Position numbers and translations under genes: made by a program. From Bacteroidetes bacterium OLB9 (GTDB lineage: Bacteria > Bacteroidota > Bacteroidia > Chitinophagales > Saprospiraceae): a stretch of DNA of 64,000 nt. The DNA lies in contig LNBW01000024.1 of the NCBI GenBank assembly GCA_001567255.1, positions 1-64,000 of the forward strand, read 5' to 3'. Of the stretch, positions 783-53,908 are shown one piece after another (within the stretch, counting starts at the first letter, position 1; every line of letters begins with the position of its first letter). Under the pieces are notes generated by a model. That model was not told the DNA's origin. It saw only the letters and a program-made list of their open reading frames with translations, and did no database searches.

Positions 783-3700
783 ATGAAAAACAGTATCTCT
801 CAATGGAGTCGTGTGTCGACTCGTAACTACTATTATGTAGCTATTGCCTTTGTATTTGCATTATTTACAAAGGCTGATATGTCTGCTCAATGCATCCCTG
901 CAGACGGAACGATCCAAGGCATAGTATTTAGCGATGTTAATAATGATGGCGTTAAAGACGCAGATGAGATTGGTTTGTCTGGTGTCCTAGTGCGTGTTCA
1001 TGGTAGTGATGGCTCAGAATTAGGCACATCAACAACTGACAATCATGGTGCATTTGCGATAAGTGGCCTGATCAATGGACAGAAAGTAAGAATTCTATTT
1101 TCTTATAGCAATGAGTTGTATCCATCCAGATTTGGAAAGGACAATGCAACCTCTGTTCAATTTGCGACTGTACCACAGTGTAATATTGGCTTAGGACTTA
1201 TTTCTGACGCAGATTTATGCAATTCTAAAACAGAAATCCTGACGACTTGTTTCGTTCAAGGTACTGTGACAGAGCGACCAAATATGCCTACCATTGTTGG
1301 AATTCCTTACGGATTTAATAGTGCCACACCTGCGCGCAAGTTTGCTATGCATGGCGAAACAGGCTCCATCTGGGGATTGGCGTATAAGAGTAGAACAAAA
1401 GAGATATTTTCATCAGCACTTGTTAAGCAATATTCCGGCCTTAAAGCAGGTCATGATGCTATCTTTAAGTCCACCTTTAATGGAACCATGTATGTCACTT
1501 CGCTTTATACCAGATTAGGAGATTTAGGTCAGAGTGTAGGAACATTGTCCATAACAGATGTGGCAGATTGTGACTATGGCAAGCAAGTAGGAAAGATAGG
1601 TCTGGGCGCTATTGTGATTTCACCTGATGAAAAATTCCTATATGTAGTTAATATATATAATAATACACTGGTTAGAATTCCTACTGTCAATCCTACGGCT
1701 GCAAATACAGTGGCTTACCAGATACCGGGCACTGATATTCATGCTTTTGCACTTAAATATCATAATGATAAAATTTATGTAGGTACTACTGAACCGGGAA
1801 AGTTTGTGTATGTGTGGGAATTTGATCCGGCTACTGGTTCATTTACAGATACCGGAGTCAGCACTTATGCCGGAAACGACTGGGAGACCATACCGGTTGT
1901 AGGCGGGGCGCCAGCACACTGGCTTACAGATATAGATTTTACGGATAACGGTGATATGTTGCTCTCTCTGTCTGACAGATTAGGACATGCTTACTGCAAT
2001 GATATAACTAACAGGTTGGATGATCAACATGGTGATTTGCTGATTGCACATAAAAACCCAGGTGGAGGATGGACAATGGAAAATAGAGCCGAAGGCGAGT
2101 TTTTTAGCGATGATTACTGGATTGCTAATCCTACCTACCATCCTGAAATAACCACAGGAAGTATTCTGGCATTGCCTGGCACGGGATCAGTTGTGTCAAC
2201 AGTATTTGATCCTGAAATTAATTCTTATTCAGGCGGTTTACACAGATATAGCACCATCACAGGTAAGAAGCAAGCCGGAAAGGAGTTATATACAAGAGAA
2301 ACAGTAGCACTTTTTGGTAAAGCAACAGGTTTTGGAGATATTATTCCATTATGTGGCATTCCTGAAATAGAAATAGGAAACCTAGTTTGGATAGATACCA
2401 ATGAAAATGGCATTCAGGATGCTGACGAAGCAGGTGTTGCAGGCTTGCCCATAGAATTACGAGATGAAAATTGTGATGTCATAGCAACCACCACTACTGA
2501 TAGTAAAGGTAATTACTTGTTTAACAGTAGTAATGTCACAGATGGCCTTTATGGCAATACGCAATATTATGTAGGCATTGCGCCTTCTATCATTGATGCG
2601 GGTACAGGGCTTTATGCTATTGATGGAAAGCTGTATAACCTATCATTATCAAATCCTTCATTTCCTGCAATCAATAGTGATGGAGGAAGTGTAGCAGGTT
2701 GTAGCGAAGCATCCATTTCCGTAGTTACGGACTACACTAGCCATCTTTTTGATCTTGGACTTATAGAAGGTAGCGATTGTAGAATAAAGATAACCAAAAA
2801 TGCTTTAAATGGCCCGGGAGTTAAATATACTGATCTTGCTGTTTTTGAAATTAAAATTCGAAATAATGGCAATCAACCTGTTTCAGATATAGAATTGGAA
2901 GATGTATTCCCTCCAACTTATGTGTTTGTTCAAGCCACTAATCCTGAATGGACAGCAAATGGCAACAAGTTGAAAACAACACTTACGGGAATCTTAGGCC
3001 CTAAGAGTGAAAGAACCATATATCTCAAATTGAATTTTGCAGCTGTTACACCTATTTCATACATATACACTAATCATGTTAAGGTCATAGCGATCAAAGA
3101 TGCTTCAGGTCGTGCAATTCCAGATATAGGAGTTTGTGCGGAAGGAGTAAATGATTTATCTTCCATGAGCTTTCCAAATATCTGTGATCTGGCACTTATT
3201 CATAAAGTAGATAAGGAAGTGATAACTGTGCCTGATTATAAAGTAAACTTTACTACCATCGTCTGTAATCAAGGCACAAATAATGCGACCGGATTTACAG
3301 TCGTTAATTATCTAAATCCTGAATTTCTCTTTAATCCGGCTGATAATCCGGGATGGACTATATCAGATGATGGAACAAAATTGTTTTACACTGTTCATTC
3401 AACATTGATTCCGAGTGACTGTAAGTATATTAAATTAGCTTTAATTGTTAAGGATCCTAAGCGTGTTGAAAAGATTATTAATTATGCTGAAATAGCAGAA
3501 AGTGCATGTGGAAGTGTAATTGCAGATTTTGACTCTACTCCGGATACTGATCCTGATAATGATAATGGTGCCGAGCCTTTCACATTTACTGATAATCTCA
3601 TTACCAGTCATGGTGAGACAGATGAAGATGACCATGACGTAGCAGTAGTGAATTTTCATTATGTAGATTTGAATATACAGAAAGTAACTAGAGTGAGGAG

Positions 3701-6700
3701 AGCTAATCCTGGTGACGAAGTCAAGTTTAATATAAAAGTAACGAATATTGGAAGAACGCCTATTTCTAAGATTAAATTGGTAGATTATCTACCAAATCAT
3801 ATGATTCTGCATGATAAAGAATGGATATCAGTCAGTGGCAATGCCGAAAAAACAATAGTGTTTGATCCAGCTTTACAGCCAGGCCAAAGCTATCCAACTA
3901 CTATCACTGTATTAATTGATAAGCAGGCTGAGCCTCCAATTTTGTTGACTAATAACATAGAGATCAATGAAATTTATGATGATTTAGGCAATGATGTCTC
4001 AGATCCTAACAAGAAACTTGGTGAACTCCCTGATGGAGGAGGTAGTGGTTCTGAGTCTGATGATATCTACGAAGATGATGTTGCAGAAGCTGCACTAGCG
4101 GTGATCACGCCTCTTGAAGTTAATCCATGTGTTTCATGTATTCAAGGTACTACTCCAACAAATGGACAATTTGTTACTACAATGAAACTGGAGAGCCTTT
4201 CAGGAGAAACTTGGACAGTAGAATCTTCTGTTGGGTTATATGATGCAGGAAGTGCAGCGCCACCGGCAGCCCCGACACCATTGGTTGATGGTTTTGTCTT
4301 AACAGAAGTCCCTATTGTATCTAGACCTGGGTTTAGTGAGTACAGACTTACTGCTATCCATCTGGATGGTCAAGGATTTTCTATCAGAGTAACCAACGAA
4401 TATGGTGATCTTGAGCAGACTTCAAGAAGTGGTGGTGTATGTAGATTTGATAAGTTAGCTATTAATGGTATCCAATCATTATGTAGAGGTACTATTACAG
4501 AATATACAGTGACAGGAGCTCCTGCTGGGACTTTATTCACTTGGTACATTGACGATGCAGAGGTGCTAGGAGTCACTGATGATGAGCATGAGATAGACTG
4601 GTCCAGTTATGCCGACGGAGAGCATACTATTAAGGTTATTATTAATAGTGATTGTGTAACACCTGCTGAACTAACGATTGCGATTGGAGAAGCTGACAGA
4701 AGCGCAATTTCATGTCATGGAACTATTCAAGTCTCACTTGATGGCAACTGTTCAAAAACAATCACACCTCAAATGTTGGCAGCAGGTACATTGCACTCAA
4801 ATTATCCATATATAGTCACTTTGACTGATGCAGAGGGTAATGTCATACCTAATGCTACCTTGACAAAAGTACATATTGGTACGATGGTGATGGCTACTTT
4901 ATTAGAAGGTTGTGGAGGTAATTCTTGCTGGACAAATATCGTTGTGGAAGATAAAACACCACCTGTATCTATTTGTCAAGACATCACATTGCCTTGTTAT
5001 AAGATTGATGAATATGAGGGGCCATTTGAAACAGATAACTGTGGTGGTAAAATCACCAATAAGATAGTCGAAGAAACTTATACAGCACTCGAATGTGATC
5101 CTGATTATATTGCATTTATAGATAGGTCTTATAGAGCAGTAGATCAGTATGGTAATGAGTCTCCAGTCTGCAGGATGAGAATACGAGTGGCACGTCCTGA
5201 TTTGTCTTTGATCAAGTGGCCGGAATCATTCCAGACATCAGCAGGTACAGCCCTTCAATGTAACACATTTGAATTGAATGATGAAGGACATCCCGATATA
5301 TCAGTTACGGGTATTCCTTACATTGCTAATGTACCAATGTACCCTTCAATTCCTGGACTCTGCAATCTATCTGTAGGGTATGTGGATAGAGATCTAGGAT
5401 ACATTAAATGTACAAGAAAAATTATAAGAACCTGGTATGTGTATGAGCAATGGTGTTCATCCACTGATTTTATAAAATTTGACCAGATGCTGGAGATAGT
5501 GGACAAAACAGCTCCTATCATTGCACCGATTGAAGATTTTTCTGTTACTGTAAATGGAAACAAAATATGCGAAGCAGACATTCAGCTTCCACAGGCAGTA
5601 GTGACGGATGATTGTAACAATCAAGGTCTAACAGTTACTGTTACATACCCTGGTGGCTTCATTGATAATTTTGATGGAACACAGAAAATTAGATTGGGTC
5701 TTGGAGATCACATTATAACCTATAGAGCCTATGACTTGTGTAAAAATTCAAGTTCTGTTAGCTTTATCGTATCTGTGATTGATGAAACACCTCCTGTAAT
5801 GGCATGTAAAGGTATTGTGGTTGTAGGACTGAATTCACTTGGTGTTGCAGATTTATACCCACGACACATTGATGACGGAAGCTATGACGGTTGTGGCATT
5901 GATTACTTTGATGTAGCACGTATGCCAGAACAAGGCCCTGTAGTTGATAGTCTTTTTGGACCATTTGTTACCTTTAATTGTGCAGATGTAGGAAAAGAAA
6001 ATATCGTTATCCTAAGAGCATGGGATATCAGCGGAAATAATAATTCCTGTATGATGACTGTAGAAGTTCAAGATAAACATGCTCCTAAAATTGCATGTCC
6101 TGCCGATCTTACGATAGATTGCTCAGAAGTGTTTGATGGTATGGATTTGACACAATATGGCAGTGCAACAGCAATTGATGTATGTGGTGCTGAGGTTGCA
6201 GAATTGAATCCTGAATTTAGCCTCAATGCTTGTAGAGTTGGTACCATTCTTAGACATTTTACAGCATCAGATAATGCAAATACTGTTATGTGTACACAGA
6301 CTATAACCGTTGAAAATAATTATGATTTTGATCCTGAAAAGCACGTGATAAAACCACAAGATTATATTGTGACTAACAATGCTTGTTCAGTGGAAGATTT
6401 AAAACCTGAGAATTTACCTGATGGATATGGAGCGCCAGTGATAACACAGACACCTTGTAGTCTTGCAGCTGCCTCTTATAAGGACGAGATATTTGATATT
6501 GTGACAGGGGCTTGTTATAAAATTTTAAGAACTTGGACGGTAATTGACTGGTGTGAGATGGAGGCAGCAGGAAGTAATTATGTGCCTTATAAATTCCAGC
6601 AAACGATCATGGTTAATAATACAATACCTCCTATTTTTGTGGATCAAGAACCTATAGATACCACTTTCTATACTGACAAAGGAGTTTGTGATAAAGGTAG

Positions 6701-9700
6701 AGTTCGACTCACTTTTGTAGGAAGAGATGATTGTACTCCGGACAATAAATTGAAGTGGAGCTATTATTTAGATTACTTTGACGAAGGTGTTGAAACGGTT
6801 ACTAATATTGGATCCGGTCCGATAGCATCTCTTGATGCAGATTTGCCAGTGGGTACACACCGTATATTGTGGTCATTTGAAGATCAGTGTGGAAATATAG
6901 TTACTAAAGGACATCTGGTGACAGTTGTAAATAATGATGCACCTCAAGCAGTTGCTCTTGATTCAATTGCAGTAGCAATAGTGCCATGTGATACTGATGG
7001 AGATGGTCTGCCTGACTTAGAAAAAGGATGTATTACAGCGGAAAGCCTTAATGTGAGTAGCTCTAGTTTGTGTTGTACAGATCCTTTAATTTTTAGTTTC
7101 TCTGAAGATATTACGGATACGGTACGATGCTTTACTTGCCTTGACGTCAACTATCCGACTTTTGTCGAACTTTGGGTTACAGATTGTAATGGGAATACAG
7201 ATAAAGTGATTGTAGAAGTAGATGTCCAGGATAATAATGACTCAGATATATGTGAGAAAATATGCGAAAACTTCCCAGCAGTTGCAGTGATTTCTGGTGT
7301 TGATGAGGTTTGTATTGGCGAAGAGGTGACGCTCACAGCTAGCGGCGGTGGTACTTACCACTGGAGTACTGGCGCCACTACACCATCCATCACGGTTCAA
7401 CCAAACACTACAACAACCTATTCTGTTACTGTGACTAATGAATACAGATGTACGGATTCTGAAAGTATCACAGTAACTGTTCATCAACTACCTGTCATAT
7501 CTATAGCAGGTGAAGATATTTGTTTAGGAGAAAGTACAACTTTGACAGCATCAGGTGGCAGTACTTACATATGGAGTACAGGCGAAACAACTCCATCTAT
7601 CACAGTGAGTCCACTTGATACGACGACGTATTCTGTTACAGCAACAGATGATAATGGATGTGAGGCATCGACTTCTAGAGAAGTCATTGTTTTCCCACTA
7701 CCTGAACCAGAGATTACCGGGAATATGTTTATTTGTGTTGGAAGTAGTACTACATTGACAGCGAGTGGTGGTGTGTCTTATGTATGGAGTACCGGCGAAA
7801 GTACGCCTTCTATTACGGTGAGTCCTTCTACCACAACTACGTATTCTGTGACTGTAACAAATGACTTTGGGTGTACAGCCAGTACTTCAAAAACTGTAAC
7901 TGTCAATGGAATTGCTTTGCAAGCTTCTATAAACGGTGATGATGTGATATGTTCTGGTGAAAGTACGACACTCCAGGCTCAACTTAATGGAGGAAATCCG
8001 GTGAGCTATGCCTGGAATACTGGAGCTACATCAAGTACTATTACTGTCTCACCTAGTTCGAATACAACTTATGTGGTGACGATAACCGATATAAATGGCT
8101 GTACGTCATCAGCATCAAAATTAGTGACGGTCAATCCATTGCCAGCCGTTAGTATTGATGGTCAAGACGTTTGTCTTAACTCCTCTACTACATTGACTGC
8201 ATCCGGAGGGACTTCTTATGTGTGGAGTACAGGTGAAACAACTCCATCTATTACAGTCAGCCCACTGATGAACACGACTTACACAGTTACTGCAACTAAT
8301 AATTTTGGTTGTACTGCCGCAGCTTCTAAAACAGTTAATGTCTTACCTTTGCCAGTAGTAACTATCACAGGAGATCTTCAAATTTGTCTGAATGAGGTTA
8401 CAACATTAACCGCTTCAGGAGGTGTGAGTTATGTGTGGAGTACAGGAGAAACCACCAGCTCAATTGATGTGTCCCCTGTAGTAAACACCACCTACACTGT
8501 GACTGCTACAGATGCAAATGGTTGTTCAAATACTGCATCTGCAACAGTAATTGTAAATGGATTGAGTATTAATGCTAGCATTACAGGTGATGATGAGATT
8601 TGTTTAGGTGAATCTACAGTTTTAACAGCTGAGCTTTCTGGAGGTACTCCTCTATCTTATCTTTGGAATACTGGTGAAACAACAGCTTCTATTACTGTTA
8701 ATCCTTCTGTTACTTCTACTTTTAGCGTTACTATTACAGATATTAATGGTTGTGAAGGTCGTGCTTCGATTACCGTGACAGTACATCCTCTACCTGATAT
8801 CACTATAGTAGGAGACGATGAAATTTGTATTGGAACATCTACAACATTAACGGCTTCAGGAGGTGTGAGTTATCTTTGGAGTACAGGTGATAGCACACCT
8901 GAGATCACAGTGAGTCCTACAAATACAACGACTTATACAGTAACCGTAACAACAGACTTTGGTTGTACAGCATCGGCATCAATAACAGTGAATGTACTAC
9001 CACTACCTGTGGTTTCGATATCCGGTGATCAGGAGATCTGTATCGGTGATACTACAACTTTGACGGCCTCAGGAGGGTCTAGTTATGTATGGAGCACAGG
9101 CGAAACAACCAGCTCTATCGATGTAGCACCAGTATCTGATACAGAATATACTGTAACAGCAACTGACACAAATGGTTGCTCAAATACTGCATCTGTAACA
9201 GTCGTCGTTCATGGTGCTAATCTTGCTGCATCTATCACGGGTGATGATATAATTTGTGTAAATGAATCAACTGTATTATCAGCTCAATTAACTGGTGGAA
9301 CCGCTGCCACTTATCTTTGGAGTACAGGCGAAACTTCTGAAAGTATTACTGTCAACCCAAGCGTAACTACGAGTTATAGTGTTACAATCACAGATATTAA
9401 TGGGTGTAGCGCAGAAGCATCAATAGACATTACGGTAAATCCACTCCCTGTGGTGATAATTACTGGAGGTTTTGAAGTATGCCCTGGAGATTCAACGACA
9501 TTGACAGCAAGTGGTGGTTCAGCTTACGTGTGGAGTACAGGTGAAACTACGGCTTCTATTACTGTTAGTCCTACCCAAAATACAACATACACTGTGACTG
9601 CAACAGATCAGAATAGCTGTTCAAATACTGCAGAGGCAACTGTGATAATTTTGCCACTACCAAATGCGGATATAAGTGGGCCTGATACAATTTGCTCAGG

Positions 9701-9869
9701 TGTTGCGACAGAGTTGATAGCAAGTGGAGGCGTAAGTTATGAGTGGAGTACAGGTGAGACAGGAACAACTATAACCGTTTCACCAACAGAGGCTACAACT
9801 TATGTTGTGACTGTTACAGATGATAAAGGATGTGAGAATACTGCCTCACATACTGTTGAAATTTTTTGA
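783..9869 (+). CDS. Giant T9SS-type adhesin, N-terminal part (frameshifted)
   Basis: This encodes a secreted cell-surface protein, probably an adhesin or matrix protein. A signal peptide covers residues 1-36 and ends near MSAQC. Modules in order: an SdrD-B/Cna-B-like domain (~43-145); a region resembling a beta-propeller (~150-520); a second SdrD-B-like domain (~533-660); three DUF11-type repeats (~664-1115); an Ig-like region; several HYR-like domains (~1310-2165) starting with a CHGTIQ motif; then twelve Ig-like repeats of ~70-77 residues (~2165-3028) with the signature LTASGG-x-YxWSTGET. The frame ends at TGA 9867-9869, directly after a T6 run at 9862-9867. The same repeat pattern continues without a gap in another frame (next entry), so the two parts were probably one gene of about 3,950 codons (783-12633). 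The core is paralogous to the protein at 49070-53908. The ligand is unknown. Confidence 0.9.
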   Translation: MKNSISQWSRVSTRNYYYVAIAFVFALFTKADMSAQCIPADGTIQGIVFSDVNNDGVKDADEIGLSGVLVRVHGSDGSELGTSTTDNHGAFAISGLINGQKVRILFSYSNELYPSRFGKDNATSVQFATVPQCNIGLGLISDADLCNSKTEILTTCFVQGTVTERPNMPTIVGIPYGFNSATPARKFAMHGETGSIWGLAYKSRTKEIFSSALVKQYSGLKAGHDAIFKSTFNGTMYVTSLYTRLGDLGQSVGTLSITDVADCDYGKQVGKIGLGAIVISPDEKFLYVVNIYNNTLVRIPTVNPTAANTVAYQIPGTDIHAFALKYHNDKIYVGTTEPGKFVYVWEFDPATGSFTDTGVSTYAGNDWETIPVVGGAPAHWLTDIDFTDNGDMLLSLSDRLGHAYCNDITNRLDDQHGDLLIAHKNPGGGWTMENRAEGEFFSDDYWIANPTYHPEITTGSILALPGTGSVVSTVFDPEINSYSGGLHRYSTITGKKQAGKELYTRETVALFGKATGFGDIIPLCGIPEIEIGNLVWIDTNENGIQDADEAGVAGLPIELRDENCDVIATTTTDSKGNYLFNSSNVTDGLYGNTQYYVGIAPSIIDAGTGLYAIDGKLYNLSLSNPSFPAINSDGGSVAGCSEASISVVTDYTSHLFDLGLIEGSDCRIKITKNALNGPGVKYTDLAVFEIKIRNNGNQPVSDIELEDVFPPTYVFVQATNPEWTANGNKLKTTLTGILGPKSERTIYLKLNFAAVTPISYIYTNHVKVIAIKDASGRAIPDIGVCAEGVNDLSSMSFPNICDLALIHKVDKEVITVPDYKVNFTTIVCNQGTNNATGFTVVNYLNPEFLFNPADNPGWTISDDGTKLFYTVHSTLIPSDCKYIKLALIVKDPKRVEKIINYAEIAESACGSVIADFDSTPDTDPDNDNGAEPFTFTDNLITSHGETDEDDHDVAVVNFHYVDLNIQKVTRVRRANPGDEVKFNIKVTNIGRTPISKIKLVDYLPNHMILHDKEWISVSGNAEKTIVFDPALQPGQSYPTTITVLIDKQAEPPILLTNNIEINEIYDDLGNDVSDPNKKLGELPDGGGSGSESDDIYEDDVAEAALAVITPLEVNPCVSCIQGTTPTNGQFVTTMKLESLSGETWTVESSVGLYDAGSAAPPAAPTPLVDGFVLTEVPIVSRPGFSEYRLTAIHLDGQGFSIRVTNEYGDLEQTSRSGGVCRFDKLAINGIQSLCRGTITEYTVTGAPAGTLFTWYIDDAEVLGVTDDEHEIDWSSYADGEHTIKVIINSDCVTPAELTIAIGEADRSAISCHGTIQVSLDGNCSKTITPQMLAAGTLHSNYPYIVTLTDAEGNVIPNATLTKVHIGTMVMATLLEGCGGNSCWTNIVVEDKTPPVSICQDITLPCYKIDEYEGPFETDNCGGKITNKIVEETYTALECDPDYIAFIDRSYRAVDQYGNESPVCRMRIRVARPDLSLIKWPESFQTSAGTALQCNTFELNDEGHPDISVTGIPYIANVPMYPSIPGLCNLSVGYVDRDLGYIKCTRKIIRTWYVYEQWCSSTDFIKFDQMLEIVDKTAPIIAPIEDFSVTVNGNKICEADIQLPQAVVTDDCNNQGLTVTVTYPGGFIDNFDGTQKIRLGLGDHIITYRAYDLCKNSSSVSFIVSVIDETPPVMACKGIVVVGLNSLGVADLYPRHIDDGSYDGCGIDYFDVARMPEQGPVVDSLFGPFVTFNCADVGKENIVILRAWDISGNNNSCMMTVEVQDKHAPKIACPADLTIDCSEVFDGMDLTQYGSATAIDVCGAEVAELNPEFSLNACRVGTILRHFTASDNANTVMCTQTITVENNYDFDPEKHVIKPQDYIVTNNACSVEDLKPENLPDGYGAPVITQTPCSLAAASYKDEIFDIVTGACYKILRTWTVIDWCEMEAAGSNYVPYKFQQTIMVNNTIPPIFVDQEPIDTTFYTDKGVCDKGRVRLTFVGRDDCTPDNKLKWSYYLDYFDEGVETVTNIGSGPIASLDADLPVGTHRILWSFEDQCGNIVTKGHLVTVVNNDAPQAVALDSIAVAIVPCDTDGDGLPDLEKGCITAESLNVSSSSLCCTDPLIFSFSEDITDTVRCFTCLDVNYPTFVELWVTDCNGNTDKVIVEVDVQDNNDSDICEKICENFPAVAVISGVDEVCIGEEVTLTASGGGTYHWSTGATTPSITVQPNTTTTYSVTVTNEYRCTDSESITVTVHQLPVISIAGEDICLGESTTLTASGGSTYIWSTGETTPSITVSPLDTTTYSVTATDDNGCEASTSREVIVFPLPEPEITGNMFICVGSSTTLTASGGVSYVWSTGESTPSITVSPSTTTTYSVTVTNDFGCTASTSKTVTVNGIALQASINGDDVICSGESTTLQAQLNGGNPVSYAWNTGATSSTITVSPSSNTTYVVTITDINGCTSSASKLVTVNPLPAVSIDGQDVCLNSSTTLTASGGTSYVWSTGETTPSITVSPLMNTTYTVTATNNFGCTAAASKTVNVLPLPVVTITGDLQICLNEVTTLTASGGVSYVWSTGETTSSIDVSPVVNTTYTVTATDANGCSNTASATVIVNGLSINASITGDDEICLGESTVLTAELSGGTPLSYLWNTGETTASITVNPSVTSTFSVTITDINGCEGRASITVTVHPLPDITIVGDDEICIGTSTTLTASGGVSYLWSTGDSTPEITVSPTNTTTYTVTVTTDFGCTASASITVNVLPLPVVSISGDQEICIGDTTTLTASGGSSYVWSTGETTSSIDVAPVSDTEYTVTATDTNGCSNTASVTVVVHGANLAASITGDDIICVNESTVLSAQLTGGTAATYLWSTGETSESITVNPSVTTSYSVTITDINGCSAEASIDITVNPLPVVIITGGFEVCPGDSTTLTASGGSAYVWSTGETTASITVSPTQNTTYTVTATDQNSCSNTAEATVIILPLPNADISGPDTICSGVATELIASGGVSYEWSTGETGTTITVSPTEATTYVVTVTDDKGCENTASHTVEIF

Positions 9870-10090
9870 CCTCATCAATCCGGTGATAACTGGAGATTCA
9901 TTGATATGTATAGGGGATTTCACAACTCTAGTAGCTAGTGGTGGCGTTAGTTACCAATGGAGTACAGGAGACTTATTTGACACTGTAAGAGTTGCACCTA
10001 CAAGTACAACTACTTATACAGTCACAGTAACTGATGAGCATGGATGTACAGCTAGTACGTCTGCTACTGTGCTTGTTGACACAGGCCAGT
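7270..10090 (+). repeat. Thirteen tandem Ig-like domain repeats
   Basis: Thirteen repeats of about 210-230 bp encode domains carrying GxxxIC, LTASGG, WSTGET, TTYTVT and GC motifs. Twelve lie before the frameshift at 9862-9867 and one after it. Repeats 4, 7 and 10 are a longer variant that starts with ASI-x-GDD and has AQL/AEL-x-GG in place of ASGG. Equivalent alanine codons sit at 7923, 8574 and 9228, giving a three-domain higher-order unit of about 652 bp. Confidence 0.85.
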
Positions 10091-12633
10091 TTACTTGTGA
10101 AACAGTAGATATTACTGTTTACCTTGATGCAACAGGCTCGGTAACTATAACACCTTCAGATGTAAGTGCTGGAGTAATAGGAGCTTGTGTAGATGTCGAT
10201 GCTAGTGTAAGTCCTTCTATGTTTAATTGTAATGATGCAGCAGCAGGAACCCCAGTGACCGTTACATTGACACTCATTAATCTTAACACCGACGATACAC
10301 TTACTTGTACCGCACTAGTGACAGTGCTAGATACACTACCACCTACATTAACGTGTCCACCAAATGTAGATGTAAGTTGCGCCGATTTTGACCCTGATGC
10401 ACCACTTTCTATATATGGCAATGCGTCTGTAACAGATAATTGTCCAGCAGGCTTAACACTGGATGAGATTGTAATTTCAGATCTAGACGAATGTAATCAA
10501 GGTATGATAACCAGAACATTCATTGGTACCGATGTTTCAGGCAATGAAACCAGTTGTGTTCAGTTGATTACCATTGAGAATCCAGATCCATTGACAATAG
10601 GAGATATAACATTCCCTGCGGATATAACCATTGACAATTGTACATCAATAGATCCTAGTGTATTAGGAAGTGTTGATCTCGATGTCGATGAATTTGTGCA
10701 ATGTGATGAAATTGTAGTGACCTATACTGATAATTTGCCTTCGCCACTGTGCGCAGGTAGTTTTGAGCGATTATGGACAGTGATAGATTCATGTCAGCTG
10801 ATTCCTGGCACGGATGCGGGTATTTGGAATTACACTCAATTTGTGGATGTGGTAGTAACACCTCCTGTTATATCAGGTCCTGATACGGTCACCATCCAAA
10901 GGGATTCATTGACGTGTATAGCTGAGCTAAAAGGTAGCACCCTTCATACTGTAGCAGGATGTAATAATTCACTTTTTGTAAACGGTAATCCTGTTAATGA
11001 TTTCAATTTGAACGGTGAATATACAGATGGAGAACATGATTTCGAATTAGTAGCTGTTTCAAACTGTGACAATACACTTGTCGATACATTTAACTTTAAA
11101 TTAATTGTAGAAGGACGCCATGATTCATTACACTGCAATAAGACGTATCCGGAACTGGATGATAATTTAGAGGTCACAGATAATGTTTATGACCACGTGG
11201 AAATCTTCCAAGGATGTGATGGCATGGGAACTATAATAGCTTCATTTGATAATATTAATCAGTATGACACAGTTAGACATTATACGTGTGCTGACTTGCC
11301 GGGAGCTCCATATTTGTTACAAGTTTACTTCTGGAGAGAAGGAGCCTCATCTCCATACTATAGTTGTGATGTATTAGTAGGTTTGAAAAACGAATATGCA
11401 CCTTTCTGTACAACACCTCCTATGAGAATTAGTGGTGAAGTGTTTACAGAAAATCAGCAGGCTGTTCCTGGAGTTGAAGTGAAGTTAGATGGCAGTGAAA
11501 TGCCACTTGAGTACACCTCTGATTCAGGAAAATATGCATTCCCTGCAATGGGTGATGGTGGAACATATGATGTAATACCGACTAAAGATGTAAATCCACT
11601 AGAAGGAGTATCGACACTAGACTTGATTAAGATCCAAAGGCATATTTTGCAGATTGAGGAATTGAATTCTCCATATAAGATCATAGCAGCTGATATTAAT
11701 AAGGATGAAAAGGTAACAGCAAGCGATATTTCACAATTAAGGAAGTTGATTTTGGGTGTTTATGACAGATTCCCTGATAATACAAGCTGGAGGCTTATCG
11801 ATAAGAATTATAAGTTCTTTGATCCTAAGGATCCGTTCCTCGGTTATTTGCCTGAAAGTTACCATATTGAGCTTTTTGATCAGAGCATGAATATTGACTG
11901 GGTTGGAGTAAAAATAGGAGATGTTAACAATAGTTATTCATCTCAAGCCAAGGATAACTCATGGCAGTCGAGATCTTCAGAAATAAGTTTTGTTATTCCT
12001 AATCAGGAATTGTTCACAGGTAGAAATGCGATTCCTGTTATTGCAAGCAGTGATGAAAGTATTACAGGATTCCAGATTTCGATTCCAGTACAAATGTTAT
12101 CTAATATTGCTATCACACAAGGTTTATTGGCCTTAGGTGCGGAAAATTATTCTTTCGTTGATAATGTATTGAATATTTCATGGCATAATTCTGAGCCGAT
12201 TGAAATGCATGCAGGTGATGTATTGTTCTACTTACATGCTGATATTGAAAATTCAATTAAAGCGCAACATCTATTCCTGACTAACATTTCGAGAGGATTG
12301 AAACCGGAATACTATGATGGAAGTCAAGCTGTTCATAAATTGTCATGGCGTATCGATGGAGAAGAAACCAGTGATTTAGAGGTATATGGCAATACGCCTA
12401 ACCCATGGAATAATGAAACAGATATTCAGTTCTATATTCCTGAAGATGGTGAGGTCGGATTGAGGGTAACCGATTTAACAGGTAGAATTATTTATTCTAC
12501 TCAGGGTTACTTCAGAAAAGGTGAAAATAGGTTTATTCTTTCATCACATAATATTAATGTTCCTGGTTTATTGCTCTATGAGGTAAGATATGGAGATCAA
12601 ACCAAGACTATGAAGATGTTGAATATCAAATAA
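9820..12633 (+). CDS. Giant T9SS-type adhesin, C-terminal part (frameshifted)
   Basis: This continues the preceding protein in the +1 frame. Removing one T from the T6 run at 9862-9867 joins EIF to DLINPVITGD and completes the thirteenth Ig-like repeat. It is not a credible independent gene: it has no signal peptide and its ATG at 9820 lies inside the coding sequence of the first part. After the repeat come HYR-like domains (CPPNVDVSC), a carboxypeptidase-regulatory-like beta-sandwich near 11430-11600, a dockerin-type calcium motif (AADINKDEKVTASDISQLRK, 11688-11747), a cohesin-like beta region (~11980-12330), and a type A T9SS sorting domain (~12378-12633; TPNPWNNETDIQFYI, then TGRI and KMLNIK). 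As the sequence stands, the sorting signal is cut off from the secreted N-terminal part. Confidence 0.88.
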   Translation: MIKDVRILPHILLKFFDLINPVITGDSLICIGDFTTLVASGGVSYQWSTGDLFDTVRVAPTSTTTYTVTVTDEHGCTASTSATVLVDTGQFTCETVDITVYLDATGSVTITPSDVSAGVIGACVDVDASVSPSMFNCNDAAAGTPVTVTLTLINLNTDDTLTCTALVTVLDTLPPTLTCPPNVDVSCADFDPDAPLSIYGNASVTDNCPAGLTLDEIVISDLDECNQGMITRTFIGTDVSGNETSCVQLITIENPDPLTIGDITFPADITIDNCTSIDPSVLGSVDLDVDEFVQCDEIVVTYTDNLPSPLCAGSFERLWTVIDSCQLIPGTDAGIWNYTQFVDVVVTPPVISGPDTVTIQRDSLTCIAELKGSTLHTVAGCNNSLFVNGNPVNDFNLNGEYTDGEHDFELVAVSNCDNTLVDTFNFKLIVEGRHDSLHCNKTYPELDDNLEVTDNVYDHVEIFQGCDGMGTIIASFDNINQYDTVRHYTCADLPGAPYLLQVYFWREGASSPYYSCDVLVGLKNEYAPFCTTPPMRISGEVFTENQQAVPGVEVKLDGSEMPLEYTSDSGKYAFPAMGDGGTYDVIPTKDVNPLEGVSTLDLIKIQRHILQIEELNSPYKIIAADINKDEKVTASDISQLRKLILGVYDRFPDNTSWRLIDKNYKFFDPKDPFLGYLPESYHIELFDQSMNIDWVGVKIGDVNNSYSSQAKDNSWQSRSSEISFVIPNQELFTGRNAIPVIASSDESITGFQISIPVQMLSNIAITQGLLALGAENYSFVDNVLNISWHNSEPIEMHAGDVLFYLHADIENSIKAQHLFLTNISRGLKPEYYDGSQAVHKLSWRIDGEETSDLEVYGNTPNPWNNETDIQFYIPEDGEVGLRVTDLTGRIIYSTQGYFRKGENRFILSSHNINVPGLLLYEVRYGDQTKTMKMLNIK

Positions 12634-39963: not shown

Positions 39964-42900
39964 ATGATGAAAAATAGAATGTTATTATTTAAAAAACGGG
40001 GGGGGGCAGAATTTAATTTTAACAATTGTTTTCATGCTTAGTGTTGTATTATGCCAGGTGAAAGGGCAGATACTTCTGTTAGATTTTAATGTAGGGAGCG
40101 AAGCGAATTGCAATGCTTACACGGATTGGATTGAAAATGGACAAGTCTATGTAAAATATCCGGAGATTCCGGTTAAGTCATTGTCTAATCAAACTGATGT
40201 TCACAACTTCTTGACTAATGATCAATGTGATACTTGGATATATGCTCCGAGCATTAACCATGGAAGTGTCCGGATAAGCAGTGGAAATGATAGAAAGTTG
40301 ATAGTACAAAAAGGCGCTGATGTCGCACCTTTCGATCAAACTTCTCCTACCACATCATTACAAGGTCAATTAGGTATCTTGTTGGATATTCCTGATAGTG
40401 AGTTGAAAGATAACTATTTTTATCAGATAAAATATGATATGCATCAGCTTTTTGATACCAATTGCGTAAAAGTTTTGGAAACAATTCCACCTCAAATACA
40501 GGAAGCAGTAGGTACACCGACGATAAGCCTTTATTATAAGTTTAAGTACGATAGCTCTGATGATATGTATGGGTTTATTGAGAACAACCATGCTCATAAC
40601 TTGGCTATAAGCTCTAATTCGGATCTGCGCATAGGAGAGTTTACAACTCAAGGTTTAGGGGCAGGTATATATCATTCTGATATATTCAAATTTGCTGTAC
40701 CCGATAATCCATTGCCTACATCCATACACCAGATAGCTATGTTCGTAACTGCAAATTTAGCAGGGGTATGTGATATGGATTTAATAGGAGAAGGAGGAGA
40801 GAGACAAACTTTGCAAGAATCTCCTATGGCTGCATTAGTGGACAATGTAGAGATAGATTGCGATCAGAAAAATATCGCCTTTTTCTTAGATGTGACACTT
40901 TTGCAACCACACGAGTTGACATCATGTGCATATAGTCGTGTATATAAAGCGGAATTGAGTACATCTTGCCCTAATGTGGACTATAATAACTTCTCGTATT
41001 GGATAACAGTGACAAACGAACAAGACGAGGTAGTAAGATATGTCCATAACACCGGTAAAACTACATATATAGATTTAGATGGGCTTCCTGATGGTACATA
41101 TAAATTCAAAGTCGACTACGATGATTCTGGTGGATATAATGCGGATGTTATTGAGTATATTCCGGATGATAGCCGACAAATCCAAACCGTCAATCATATC
41201 AATGAACCATATGTCGTGACTGGTACTGAGGTGTTTTCAGATGATGCATATATGGCAACAGATATGATCATCATGTCAGGTGGACATCTTACAGTATCCG
41301 CAACACTGTACATGAAAGACAACCACAAAATAGAAGTGCAGGAGGGTGGAAAATTGGATATAACCTTTACAGGTCATATCACGGCTTGTGAAACGCAGTG
41401 GTTTGGGGTAGTGGTCAATGGAACAGGAGAGGTCTATAGTCAGGGTACGCTCAGTAAGTCAAAAACTGGAATCAGGGCACTTTCAGATGCTTCTGGAAAG
41501 ATACATACAGAGGGGGCGCATTTCTTTGATAACGAGGTAGTGAATATCCACGTGGAAGGCCCAACAGAGATCAGTGTAAAAAATACGGATATATTAGGGG
41601 GCATACGAGGCGTACATCTTGTTAATAGTACAGGAGGTACTACCTCCAATGGTGTGTTTTTTGAAGGGAATCAGTTTTCATACCAGACCAATGAGGGCAT
41701 TTTGGCTATAAATACAACTATTAATGTCCGCGGTGGCAATCAGTTTGTAGGTTGCCATGAGGCTATCGCCATGAGGAATTTATTTGGATCTAATGTCGAG
41801 TCTTTTATAGGTGGAGATGCTAGTTTTCCTATATCCAATGAATTTTTAAATTGTGATATAGGCGTATATGCCAATGGCAGCACACAAAAAATAAAGAATA
41901 ATATTTTTAACTACTGCAATAACGCTACGTGGATGTCCGGCTTAAATGGGTATGAATCAGAATTCAACAGCTTTACCGGCGGATATAATGCAGAAGGTCT
42001 TTTTGGTGCAGGAAGCGAATCCAATATATCAGAGCATAATGACCATAGTAGTTCAGTTTATGGTATCAGAGCATATTTTGAAAATAATTACTATACTTTC
42101 CTGTCCAATTGCTTCAATAGTGCCGGGACAGATGTCGAGGCCTACGGTACGATTAGTGGCGCCCAGGGTAATGAAAATGTAGCGGCTTCCAATTGCTTTA
42201 CACATGCGAATTATGTACAAGATCTTGTGCTCAATACGAATCATGTTTTGTATTATGTGCCAAAACCAAATATTACCTACCCGCCATGTTTAGATCCTGT
42301 GATGCAGGGTAGCTATATAGTCGTAGATAAATCGGAAGCACATCAAAGTAATCAATGTGGCACGTCTCTTAGTAACCCTCCTATCAGGGAGTATGATTAT
42401 ATCAAAGCGTTGGGGTGTGACAGTGTGCGGCTTCACAATATGATATTGGACTACCGGAGGCAGCTAAAAACACTGCTAGTGAAATCTACACCGCTATCCC
42501 AAACAGAAAAAGCAATGGTTGCCTGGCTGAATCGCCACATACGCTATCTTGTCAATCAGTGGGCAAGGTGTCTTCGCAAGCATGGGAAATGGACTGAGTT
42601 ATATACATGGTACAGGGAACAGGAAGATAAAGCGTATGACATCAAAGCAGCAGAAGTGAAAGTAATCATGGGACAGTACAATGATGCGATTTCCTTATTG
42701 GAAGATATCCAGGATACGTATAGCATGGACGCGTCCGTCATGGATGCGATACTGCTCAATATCGCATATGTCCGCAATGACATAGCAACACCGGTATTCA
42801 CGCCTACACAGCTAAACCTGCTGCGTAGTGTAGCATCCATGTCCGACCCTTATGCAGCTTATGGGAGAGCGTTACTGTATGTATTGACAGACGAGAAGAT

Positions 42901-43207
42901 AGAGCCTGCGTTGCCGGAAAGTAATGTATATAGGAGTGCACCGGCTTCGGCAGAAGAAATCGATGAAATATATACTATTAAGCCTAATCCTGCATCAGAT
43001 ATCATCAACATAACAATTGATAATAGCAAAGAAAACAGTACTTATGAATATGGCATCATGGATCTTGCTGGGAAAGTAATGCTACGTAATGTTATTGATG
43101 CACAATCTGGAATAGATATATCATCGATGAAACCGGGTATGTATTTTGTACAAATCCTAAAAGACAATATCCCTGAATGTGTCCGTAAGATAGTAATCTT
43201 AAAATAA
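39964..43207 (+). CDS. T9SS-secreted beta-helix surface protein with poly-G tract in signal peptide
   Basis: A large surface protein of about 1,080 residues if read from ATG 39964. The frame is continuous only from ATG 40034 (1,057 residues), which has a truncated signal peptide. From ATG 39964 the codons give MMKNRMLLFKK, then a G9 run at 39998-40006. With one G fewer the frame runs into QNLILTIVFMLSVVLCQVKG, completing a normal signal peptide. As given (G9) the gene is out of frame. Downstream are an N-terminal beta-rich region, a fibronectin- or Ig-like part (~300-390), a right-handed beta-helix (~430-720), a helical TPR-like stretch (~790-900) and a type A T9SS sorting domain (~980-1057; IKPNPASD, MDLAGKV, KIVILK). 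The ligand is unknown. It lies between aat and clpS. Confidence 0.85.
39998..40006 (+). repeat. Homopolymeric G9 tract in coding sequence
   Basis: Nine consecutive G follow A6C, within the signal-peptide codons of the surface protein. G8 would restore the frame. Long G runs are rare in AT-rich DNA and are typical of slipped-strand phase variation, though they are also prone to sequencing error. Confidence 0.8.
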
Positions 43208-48971: not shown

Positions 48972-49069
48972 AACATGTAAGTTACTGGGACTTAGGTGTA
49001 TATGTTTTGTATGACTAATTTCCATAACAGTAAAAAAATTTATTTCATTAAACTCAAAATTTGGATCTC

Positions 49070-52000
49070 ATGAATGAATCAAATTCAACACGCTTTAGTT
49101 CGATACTGAGACTTTTTAGTCTGGTTGTCGCACTACTTACTGGGGCCATGACACAAGTATATGCTCAACCGGCTTGTGCTTGTCATGGTACTATTCAACT
49201 ATCTGTAGATGATCAGTGTGAAGCTGATGTGACTGTCGATATGTTGATTACAAACAGCACAAATAATTGTGATTACGGACCGGGTTCTATTGTAACCTTA
49301 ATGACTTCTCCAACAAGCGGAATCATCAGTTCTGGATTAGGTTCAGCTAAATTGACTAACGGATTTATCTGGATCAATAAAACCATCTATGGTAAAGTAT
49401 CCACTCCTGATGGAAGAAATAGTTGTTGGACGATTATTAATGTAGAAGATAAAATGAAGCCCAATTGGGAAAGTACAGAACCGGATACTCTGGTTGTAAC
49501 TTGTCCTAGTATGGCAGATTTTGTTCCTGTCGCACTTGACAACTGCCATCCTCCTCGGGTTTTTCAGGTTTCTGAAGAGATTATCTTGAATACATGTGAC
49601 AGACCTGACTTATTTGCAGGCCCTGACACATTAAAGATCATCAAAAGAAAGTTTAGAGCCCAAGATGATTTTGGCAATGTATCTGAGACTGATTGTGATG
49701 TTGTATTTTATGTAGTTGCTCTTGATATAGAAAATATTATTGTACCAGGAATGGTTGCTTTAGAATGTGATGGTAATTGGGCTAAGCTTCCGGATGGAAG
49801 ACCGTCACCTACGGATGTGACTATTAATGGTATAACCTACCCTGGTACCGGATATCCTGCCTTGACTCCATGGACTGGATTTACTTCAGGCGCGGGTACA
49901 AAGCAAGTGCTGCTCCACTCTAATAGTTTAATCCTAAATGGAGGAACAACAGGTACTGGTGGCGGAGTAGTTACTGGTGCTCAGCTATGCATTACAGCAG
50001 AGAGAGATGGAAATGTAGAATTTGATTGGTATGCTCAAATGCTAGGACCGGTTCCACCTAATGGAAATTATAATCAAGATCATGCGCAATATACATTAAA
50101 TGGTGTAGTTACAAATTTAACTGTGGGAGGACCAGGATCTGGCGCTACTCCTCAATCAGGAACTGGTGTATCTGTTGCAGTAAGCAGAGGAGATCAATTT
50201 TGCTTCAGAGTACGTACTAATAATGTAGCTAGATGGACTCAACTTACAGTTTCTAATTTGTCAGGACCTTTCCCTGCTAATAGAGCTTTGGAGCCGTATA
50301 GAGAAAGTTGTAATCTGTATATCTCTTATGAAGATACTGATCTAGGTACGATTAAGTGTACTAGAAAGATCATGAGAGTATGGAGAATATTAGAATGGTC
50401 ATGTGAGTCTAGATTTGAAGAATTTATTCAGATGATTGAAATTTCGGACAATAAAGGTCCTGTTATTTCTAAACTTCCTTTAACTGACGAAGCAACTACT
50501 AATGGTTATACTTGCGAAGGTATTTATAGATTACCTAAGCCGACTTTGACAGATAATTGTAGCAATAAATTAACATATGATGTTACTTATCCTGGAGGAT
50601 TCTTAAAAGGACTAAAAGTCACAGATGCTGACGTTTTGATTCCTCTTCCTGTAGGATGTAATGAAGTCAAATATACTGCATACGATGAATGTAAAAATAA
50701 AACAGAGCAAAGCATTACAGTAATTGTAAAAGATAAAACAGCACCGGTTGCTGTTTGCGATCAACATACTGTAGTTGGTTTGACAAATAGTGGAGAAGCA
50801 TGGGTTTATGCTACTTCTTTTGACGATGGAAGTTATGATGATTGCGGAATAGCTAATATAATTGTAAGGCGGATGGATGAAGGCCGATGTGGCCCATGTG
50901 CTGCACCTACATTTGATGATTTTACTTATCTAGGAGAATTTACACAGGTTGGACAAAACCAAAAACCCCATTATTATTACTTCTCTAGAACTAAAGTGAC
51001 TGCTGAGGTTGCATTTAAAACAGCTGCGGCAATGGGAGGTTATGTAGTAGCACTCAATACAAGTGCAGAGGCAGATTGGGTACATGGAAAGGTACAGGAA
51101 TGGAATTTACATGAAGACTATATCATAGGTCTTAGAGGTTACCAAGGTATCTTTGACTGGCAAAGTGGAGAAGACTCTCCTTATAGGAGATGGGAGACGG
51201 GGTACCCTAATAATGTATTATTAAATAAAAACGTTGCCGTAAAAGATACTACCGGACAGTGGTACAACTATGGCGATTATGATTGCGAAAGTAATGAATT
51301 GTATTATGTAGTAGAAATAGATAATCCTTGCGGATTTAGTAATTCTGTGTTATTCTGCTGTACTGATGTAGGTACTTCTCATCAAGTTGTATTCAGAGTG
51401 ATTGACAAATCAGGTAATTACAATGACTGTATGGTCAGCGCAGTGCCACAAGATAAGCTGCCACCATCAATGGTTTGCCCTAATGATGTAACTGTATCAT
51501 GTAGGCATCTATTTGATACTGAAAAACTGACCGCTTCATTTGGTTGGCCTACGACATTTGATAATTGTGATAATATCACCGTCACTACTGATTCAATCAT
51601 TGACTTGAATTCATGTCGTATCGGAACCATCACAAGAAACTTCACAGCAACAGATCCGGGAGGAAGATCAGTTACCTGTCGACAAGTAATTACAGTAGTC
51701 GGAGATGAGCATTTCGAAATGGATGCAACAAGATGGCCTGCAGATGTAACAGTTGCGGCATGTGGCGATCCTTCTGATCCGCAATTCTTGCCGGATAGTA
51801 CAGGAAGACCAGATTTAATAGCTGATAATGTGTGTTCTTTGGTAGGTGCTAGTTATACTGATCAGTTATTCTTATTTAACGATAATAATGGTGAAGCTTG
51901 CTTCAAGATATTAAGACACTGGAAAGTCATTGACTGGTGCCAATATTATTTATCAACAGGAGGTGGAAAAGAGTACCGTACATGGACACACACCCAGATT

Positions 52001-53908
52001 ATCATGGCAATTGACAATATCAAGCCTGTAATTTTATCTGGATGTGACCCAGCATCTACATGTACTTATGATCCACGATGTGAAAAAGGATATATCGAGC
52101 TGACAGCGAGTGCAACGGATGATTGTACTGATCAGATGAGATATTTTGTTAAAGTGTATATAGGCAATGGCAGCTCTTTCGATCCAAGGTTCTCAAAATC
52201 CGGTTTAGCTACATATGACAGTAACACAAGAGTAAATACAATAAATGCAAGTGGTGAATATCCAATCGGCACACATAGAATTGAGTACGCATTTGAAGAC
52301 AGATGTGGAAACCTTACTAAGTGTTCTAAGATCTTCAGTATTGTTAACTGTAAGGCACCTACACCTTATTGTTTGAATGGTCTTTCTACAAGCCTTATGA
52401 AGATGGCAGATGGCGGAATGGTTGAGATATGGGCTTCAGATTTTGATAATGGTAGTTCACATCCATGTGGATATAAAGTGTACCACTCATTTGAACCTAT
52501 TACTCTTGACCAGAATGGAGATCCTGTTCTTAAGTCAGGAAGAATATACACTTGTGATAGTTTAGGAAGAAGAGATGTTAAAGTTTATGTTGGCGTTGTG
52601 GTCGATGGACATGTAGTTCAAGACTTCTGCTCTACATTTATCGACATTCAGGATAACCTTGGTGCTTGTAAGCAGGGTAACAGAATAGTACATGGAACCG
52701 TTACTAATCAGGCAAACCAACCGGTTTCAGACGTATTAGTTGAACTGGGAGGTAGTGAATATACTTCAGTGACGAATCAAAATGGAGGGTATAAATTTGA
52801 GAATATCAATACAGGAGCCTCTTATGTACTGGCACCGTCTAAGACAGATGATTATCTTAATGGCGTATCTACTCTAGACCTGGTAATTATCCAAAGACAT
52901 ATTCTTGGTCTCGATGGTTTGAATTCTCCATACAAGTTGATTGCGGCAGATGTAAATAACGATAAGAATATCACAGCATCTGACCTTTCTGAGATTCGTA
53001 AGTTGATACTAGGTACTACAGATTCATTTAGCAATAATGGCTCATGGAAGTTCTTTGACAATGAATACAAATTCCTTGACCCAACTGCTGCTGAGACTGA
53101 AAACTTGCCAACAACCTATTATCTAGAAAATATTCAGTCTGATATGGCTGTAGATTTCAAAGGAGTGAAGATAGGTGATGTTAACGAAAGTGCGGCAGCA
53201 AATGCAGGCAGTAATCCGATAGAAACTAGAACAGCTCAGCGATTTGAATTGGCCACTACTAACCATAATTTTGCTGCAGGTCAGTCTGTTGAGGTACCGG
53301 TTTATGTGAGTCACGATGTTGATGTAGCAGGGTTCCAGTTTACTGTTAATTTTGATACTGATTTATTCAGCCTTGAAGCTATAAACAGCCCAATGGTAGG
53401 TATTAATGACAGTAACTTTGGTTTGACCAAACTAGCTAATGGTGCGATCACAGTATCTTACAACCGTGATGCCGCCTTTGAAGTGCAAGAAGGTAATAAC
53501 ATTCTAGTCCTTACATTCAAGGCTAAAGCTAATGGAAGTATCGATCAGGCTATGTGGATCAACTCAGCAGTAACTAAAGCTGAAGCATACAATGCAGATC
53601 TTCATGTTATGAATGTATCATTTGAAGTTCAGGAAAGAACTAATGACGTAGTTATATTGCATCAAAACACTCCAAACCCATTCAAATCAGTGACTACTAT
53701 TGCATTTGAATTGCCGGAGGCTGCTGCTGCTACACTTACTGTCTATGATGTTACAGGTAAAGTTGTTAAGGTTATCAGCAATAACTTTAACAAAGGTTAC
53801 AACAGTATCGAGTTAGACAGAACAGATCTGGGAACTAGTGGTGTAATGTATTACACACTGGAGTCAGGCGACTTCAAAGCAACCAGAAAGATGATAGTAA
53901 TAGAATAA
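49070..53908 (+). CDS. Giant T9SS-type adhesin with C-type-lectin-like domain
   Basis: A 1,612-residue secreted surface protein. The signal peptide covers 1-33 (ending QVYAQ). The CHGTIQLSVDDQC domain and the following HYR-like domains are paralogous to ~1310-2165 of the protein at 783. A beta-rich insert (~260-405) follows. A C-type-lectin-like domain (~616-758; FTYLGEFTQVG, WETGYPN, GQWYNYGDYDCESNELYYVV) is inserted among the HYR-like domains. Later come a regulatory-like beta-sandwich, a dockerin-type motif (AADVNNDKNITASDLSEIRK), a cohesin-like domain (~1405-1525) and a type A T9SS sorting domain (~1530-1612; TPNPFKSVTTIAFEL, TGKVVKVI). The ATG at 49070 is preferred over the TTG three codons upstream. 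The target is unknown; sugar or protein binding through the lectin-like domain is plausible. Confidence 0.93.
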   Translation: MNESNSTRFSSILRLFSLVVALLTGAMTQVYAQPACACHGTIQLSVDDQCEADVTVDMLITNSTNNCDYGPGSIVTLMTSPTSGIISSGLGSAKLTNGFIWINKTIYGKVSTPDGRNSCWTIINVEDKMKPNWESTEPDTLVVTCPSMADFVPVALDNCHPPRVFQVSEEIILNTCDRPDLFAGPDTLKIIKRKFRAQDDFGNVSETDCDVVFYVVALDIENIIVPGMVALECDGNWAKLPDGRPSPTDVTINGITYPGTGYPALTPWTGFTSGAGTKQVLLHSNSLILNGGTTGTGGGVVTGAQLCITAERDGNVEFDWYAQMLGPVPPNGNYNQDHAQYTLNGVVTNLTVGGPGSGATPQSGTGVSVAVSRGDQFCFRVRTNNVARWTQLTVSNLSGPFPANRALEPYRESCNLYISYEDTDLGTIKCTRKIMRVWRILEWSCESRFEEFIQMIEISDNKGPVISKLPLTDEATTNGYTCEGIYRLPKPTLTDNCSNKLTYDVTYPGGFLKGLKVTDADVLIPLPVGCNEVKYTAYDECKNKTEQSITVIVKDKTAPVAVCDQHTVVGLTNSGEAWVYATSFDDGSYDDCGIANIIVRRMDEGRCGPCAAPTFDDFTYLGEFTQVGQNQKPHYYYFSRTKVTAEVAFKTAAAMGGYVVALNTSAEADWVHGKVQEWNLHEDYIIGLRGYQGIFDWQSGEDSPYRRWETGYPNNVLLNKNVAVKDTTGQWYNYGDYDCESNELYYVVEIDNPCGFSNSVLFCCTDVGTSHQVVFRVIDKSGNYNDCMVSAVPQDKLPPSMVCPNDVTVSCRHLFDTEKLTASFGWPTTFDNCDNITVTTDSIIDLNSCRIGTITRNFTATDPGGRSVTCRQVITVVGDEHFEMDATRWPADVTVAACGDPSDPQFLPDSTGRPDLIADNVCSLVGASYTDQLFLFNDNNGEACFKILRHWKVIDWCQYYLSTGGGKEYRTWTHTQIIMAIDNIKPVILSGCDPASTCTYDPRCEKGYIELTASATDDCTDQMRYFVKVYIGNGSSFDPRFSKSGLATYDSNTRVNTINASGEYPIGTHRIEYAFEDRCGNLTKCSKIFSIVNCKAPTPYCLNGLSTSLMKMADGGMVEIWASDFDNGSSHPCGYKVYHSFEPITLDQNGDPVLKSGRIYTCDSLGRRDVKVYVGVVVDGHVVQDFCSTFIDIQDNLGACKQGNRIVHGTVTNQANQPVSDVLVELGGSEYTSVTNQNGGYKFENINTGASYVLAPSKTDDYLNGVSTLDLVIIQRHILGLDGLNSPYKLIAADVNNDKNITASDLSEIRKLILGTTDSFSNNGSWKFFDNEYKFLDPTAAETENLPTTYYLENIQSDMAVDFKGVKIGDVNESAAANAGSNPIETRTAQRFELATTNHNFAAGQSVEVPVYVSHDVDVAGFQFTVNFDTDLFSLEAINSPMVGINDSNFGLTKLANGAITVSYNRDAAFEVQEGNNILVLTFKAKANGSIDQAMWINSAVTKAEAYNADLHVMNVSFEVQERTNDVVILHQNTPNPFKSVTTIAFELPEAAAATLTVYDVTGKVVKVISNNFNKGYNSIELDRTDLGTSGVMYYTLESGDFKATRKMIVIE

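Follow-up and report, generated by a model that had tools for sequence, protein, structure and literature searches.

Does the run of nine G residues at positions 39998-40006 of the 64,000-nucleotide stretch analysed here (the window) switch a surface protein on and off? The earlier note had proposed that it does, and we give a probability of about 0.88 to the reading in which the G9 tract is a translational phase-variation switch, that is, a contingency locus. This reading is supported by a G10 tract in an orthologue, a G9 tract in a congener, the recurrence of unrelated repeats in homologues, the intact frames of OFF copies and a one-unit difference in copy number.

The tract, its reading frames and its protein

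The only G9 tract in the window lies at exactly this location; the next longest G run has 5 residues and the longest C run also has 5. Furthermore, the 64 kb contain no second strict frame-shifting repeat, a class that we defined as a G or C run of at least 8, an A or T run of at least 10, or at least three perfect copies of a unit whose length is not divisible by three, with a total of at least 16 bp. The features of the 5' end of the gene are as follows:

39964..40066, plus strand: leader in the ON frame (translated with one G fewer), with n-region MMKNRMLLFKKRGG, h-region QNLILTIVFMLSVVL and the end CQVKG; the tract lies between the n- and h-regions
39998..40006, plus strand: G9 tract, proposed slipped-strand switch, OFF as assembled and ON at G8 or G11 (sequence; G10 at the matching position in the orthologue)
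39964..40041, plus strand: OFF product as assembled, 25 codons and then TAG (translation)
40034..43207, plus strand: intact downstream open reading frame, 1,057 codons from ATG 40034 and 1,078 from stop to stop

As assembled, translation from ATG 39964 yields MMKNRMLLFKKRGGAEFNFNNCFHA and meets a stop at 40039-40041. At G8 or G11, translation in silico from the same ATG instead yields MMKNRMLLFKKRGG(G)QNLILTIVFMLSVVLCQVKG and continues into the long frame ending at 43207. G7 and G10 leave the window tract out of frame like G9, and the ON lengths are G8 and G11. A Sec signal peptide is visible by inspection in the ON frame only. Translation confirmed in this way that the tract sits inside apparent signal-peptide codons, that it is out of frame at G9 and that G8 joins the MMKNRMLLFKK leader to the long frame.

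The earlier note had also argued from the rarity of long G tracts, and here it overstated the case. A first-order Markov model predicts 0.04 runs of G9 or longer per 64 kb, or about 2 in the 3.16 Mb window genome (G000, 80 contigs), and genome-wide we found two G9/C9 runs, the second in a tRNA-Ser gene (L032:1440-1515; G000:C8:30901-30909). Rarity alone is therefore weak evidence, since about two runs are expected and two are found; it is the position of the tract and its conservation that bear the argument. When G9 was searched across the genomes of the genus, the other matches were mostly tRNA-Ser genes or in-frame coding runs. Runs similar to the tRNA-Ser G9 are present in G004 and G009 and could be used as a control for errors in tract length.

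Downstream of the tract, the gene encodes a protein with the following recognizable parts:

41003..41122, plus strand: DUF3244-like (Ig-like) stretch under the Pfam cut-off (23.2 bits against 25), with DUF3244 structures among the Foldseek matches
41204..41983, plus strand: beta-helix region (AF2 residues 391-650, block pLDDT mostly 75-90; Pfam Beta_helix in homologues)
42389..42889, plus strand: alpha-helical region conserved in the family (AF2 residues 786-952)
42983..43198, plus strand: T9SS type A C-terminal sorting domain (PF18962 / TIGR04183; domain matches above curated cut-offs)

The sorting domain scored 50 bits for PF18962 (cut-off 27) and 44.4 bits for TIGR04183 (cut-off 23), so the assignment of the protein to T9SS surface proteins held against the curated cut-offs of both Pfam and NCBIfam. 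The beta-helix fared less evenly: the AF2 model and Pfam matches in homologues support it, but Pfam gives no beta-helix match for the window protein itself. With a mean pLDDT of 49.8 the model as a whole is poor, and we used its beta-helix, helical and C-terminal parts alone; Foldseek searches with it returned mainly beta-helix, T9SS-CTD and DUF3244 matches with weak E-values. No recognized peptidase domain was found in the window protein. Elsewhere in the window, HYR, dockerin and cohesin domains occur in a T9SS protein encoded by the frame at 49061-53908, and the frame at 9820-12633 encodes a second dockerin protein; a cohesin-dockerin pairing of these two secreted proteins is possible.

From this anatomy, replication slippage would be expected to add or remove Gs at the tract, at some presumed rate and presumably in a reversible manner. 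In cells with G8 or G11, the ribosome would read from ATG 39964 through the tract and into the Sec signal peptide, and the resulting ON protein should be exportable and then handed to the type IX system via its C-terminal domain. In cells with G9 or G10, translation would end after a short peptide. The assembled genome would then come from a cell in the OFF state or from a population with OFF cells in the majority. Such a switch may pay off by varying how far a surface or secreted protein is exposed to phage, predators, competitors or prey.

Repeats at the starts of related genes

Comparison within the genus gave the tract lengths of relatives at the same leader position, as the earlier note had proposed. 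The genus of the window genome includes G004 (Chitinophagales bacterium isolate UW1SPNA035) and G007 (Aureispira sp. CCB-QB1 isolate MiH-14oct19-171); Aureispira belongs to the Saprospiraceae. The G004 orthologue, 43% identical over its full length and with an intact frame, carries G10 at the matching codons; translated in silico at G8 or G11, its ATG leads into MNFKILSQKTLGG(G)VNIILYLVFAFSIVSFQMDGQ, and at G9 or G10 into a stop. The neighbours of the window gene were searched for around this orthologue and synteny was not found. A further congener, G009, has G9 in a similar leader (MSNQILCFKKMGG / VNLILSIFILLYAVNSIQAQQ at G8), and the protein that follows contains HEIGHALNLFH, a metallopeptidase-type motif. 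All three members of the genus with a G tract (G000, G004 and G009) are OFF as assembled and ON at 8 or 11. In the G007 homologue (L085:1520-4801, G007:C155), the leader DNA precedes a subtilase / beta-helix / T9SS protein and holds an interrupted GGGGGGAGG of nine bases, out of frame with the ATG. This homologue looks like a possibly locked-off switch, as the interrupted tract is probably not slippery. Comparison of the G004, G009 and G007 genes therefore indicates that the position of the tract is kept while its length and the N-terminal domain change.

The association extends well beyond the genus. A profile (A3) built from the beta-helix and helical region only of seven proteins, with leader and sorting domain excluded, had matches in 240 of the 298 genomes of the bacterial family, and from the best of these matches we took 60 (L129-L188) and examined their 5' regions. 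Strict frame-shifting repeats lay near the 5' end in 25 of these 60 homologues (from -60 to +210 nt of the 5' end of the frame, 15.9 kb). The coding bodies of the same genes had none in 156.5 kb and the upstream DNA had 10 in 55 kb, a density from which 2.9 would be expected near the 5' end against the 25 seen. As a control, we took 59 further PF18962 proteins encoded in eight of these genomes and found no such repeat (Fisher p=2.5e-9 against 25/60); by our own tally, 11 of the 17 family members examined in these eight genomes carry one. More distant homologues had repeats as well, 10 of 23 within the family and 5 of the 13 that came from elsewhere in the order, giving 40 of 96 for all homologue sets combined (about 58% of the sampled homologues have no strict repeat). 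The repeats found among the 60 homologues are of several kinds:

Poly-G: L155, L167, L170 and L175
Poly-C: L172, L176, L180, L184 and L185
Dinucleotides: CT in L165, TA in L159 and CA in L131
Tetranucleotides: CATT in L149; TTTC/CTTT in L150, L187 and L188
8-mers in L135, L156, L157, L158 and L161; an 11-mer in L134

AACC units also occur among the family repeats, and the unit sequences are unrelated between homologues. One genome alone (G018) has three homologues with 8-, 8- and 11-bp units. A few repeats lie outside the signal peptide, either just after it (L139) or in the untranslated start (L162). A search with the pattern AAAA..G7+..WTAATT as a marker of the family leader was abandoned: its matches were mostly background and nearly as frequent in the control. 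It did yield L067 (G420:C347:2550), a candidate relative from another genus with MLHKIFFCKKPGG-ALLIFLLG, a G9 tract and DNA like that of the G007 leader. In the homologue L088:130-290 (G016:C57), the frame of the signal peptide differs from that of the body with no strict repeat at the junction, a case of error or of a non-repeat frameshift.

Several Pfam peptidase families are matched by the N-terminal parts of the 60 homologues: 16 of these have M43, 9 have S8, 3 have a trypsin-like domain and 1 has C10, with other matches weaker. It is as if different peptidase families were exchangeable on one beta-helix / T9SS chassis.

Phase, copy number and rival explanations

For most repeats, exactly one of the three phases gives an in-frame upstream ATG, and the leader so formed usually begins with basic residues and contains a hydrophobic core. 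A difference in length is seen between L267 (G286:C32) and L268 (G177:C13): in an alignment of 1,278 bp they differ by one substitution and by one AACC unit (9 versus 8) in the signal-peptide repeat. The two genomes are classed as different species of one genus, and because the gene copies are nearly identical despite this, the pair suggests a recent horizontal transfer of a switchable gene. Repeat number thus differs among close relatives in a family member (AACC x9 versus x8), and it also differs between the window gene and its more distant orthologue (G9 versus G10). Related leaders elsewhere in the family have C8 and C11 in G266 and C9 and C12 in G234 and G163.

Homopolymers are prone to error, and other short-run indels had been noted earlier in the window. 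In addition, the large frames at 783-9869 and 9820-12633 overlap by 50 bp in different frames and could be a single frameshifted gene for a very large SdrD_B/Ig_7 protein or, alternatively, two overlapping genes. Even so, we regard it as very improbable that an assembly or sequencing error hides a true tract of G8 and a gene that is always on. G10 and G9 stand at the corresponding place in independent assemblies of the orthologue and the congener, and the 4-, 8- and 11-bp repeats of homologues are not made by base-calling errors. Sequencing error is insufficient because 8-bp and 11-bp units occur at the same spot. Further, the proportion of copies that are ON as assembled (7 of 28, with ambiguous or truncated cases left out and a few others a matter of judgement) does not differ from 1/3 (p=0.43).

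Just as improbable is a fixed gene that never switches at the DNA level and is expressed by slippage of RNA polymerase or of the ribosome on the G tract. Runs of G can be slippery, and a gene expressed in this way could tolerate the out-of-frame tracts of three congeners and of G007. Yet the interrupted tract of G007 should slip poorly, homologues use 8-mers, 11-mers and tetramers to the same effect, and in some copies the assembled sequence is already in frame. Decay into a permanently inactive gene would also account for the frame as assembled and for the locked-off appearance of G007, but it is less probable still: the window gene keeps its 1,057 open codons, its 43%-identical orthologue is intact, and OFF homologues have full-length frames. 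OFF copies in general have kept about 1,000 open codons, which therefore argues against decay. Least probable of all is a start at ATG 40034, which lies within the long frame and would leave the tract in the 5' UTR with no coding role, for the resulting MLSVVLCQVKG has no charged n-region and has lost most of the hydrophobic core, and homologue tracts lie, in the ON phase, between ATG plus basic n-region and h-region.

Comparison with known systems

Phase variation by slippage is known mainly from small-genome pathogens, and the Bacteroidota are known for invertible promoters. Translational switching of the window gene would fit into a broader pattern that we consider likely from the comparison of sequences: in Saprospiraceae and related families, a T9SS family whose peptidase heads are exchangeable would be under stochastic on/off control, and its switches would be gained, lost and replaced often, with unrelated units at the signal-peptide codons, making up an order-wide contingency system in free-living Bacteroidota. 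Unrelated unstable repeats would have arisen repeatedly at the signal-peptide codons of this family, and an Opa-like gamble on surface proteins seems to be common in the free-living members of the order. The spread of slippage switches through Saprospiraceae T9SS proteins appears to be undescribed; searches of the open-licence PMC literature found no relevant account of phase variation by repeats, whether in Saprospiraceae or in T9SS genes, which is weak evidence of novelty. If true, the pattern brings contingency loci into a secretion system and an ecology new to them, namely the secreted peptidase-like proteins of environmental bacteria, and its many natural replicates could be used to ask how switches arise. 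It also has a practical side: about three quarters of the sampled repeat-bearing members are out of frame as assembled and would be annotated as lacking a signal peptide or as pseudogenes.

The poly-G contingency loci of Campylobacter, Helicobacter and Neisseria have G tracts of about 8-11 residues in the reading frame. The window gene resembles them in having its G tract inside a reading frame. It differs in that the product is a T9SS substrate and in that the window genome has one protein-coding tract of at least 8 rather than dozens. A closer likeness in position is offered by the opa genes of Neisseria, with CTCTT pentamer repeats in the leader-peptide codons (PMC3960869). As in Opa, which is turned ON and OFF by slipped-strand mispairing, a frame-shifting repeat stands in the signal-peptide codons of a surface-exported protein, and in several of the homologues described here the hydrophobic core is itself encoded by CTTT or CT tracts. 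Unlike in Opa, the proteins are not homologous: the window protein is a beta-helix with a T9SS domain and has no homology to the Opa-type eight-stranded outer-membrane barrel. Moreover, the repeat unit varies by gene, the hosts are environmental Bacteroidota, and switching is here a prediction from sequence. In the excerpted parts of a 2025 review, phase variation in Bacteroides is described as invertase-mediated site-specific inversion, and those excerpts mention no Saprospiraceae case (PMC11868660). Compared with the Bacteroides invertible promoters as the excerpts present them, the window locus would likewise subject a surface product to phase variation, and in the same phylum, but by repeat slippage rather than by inversion.
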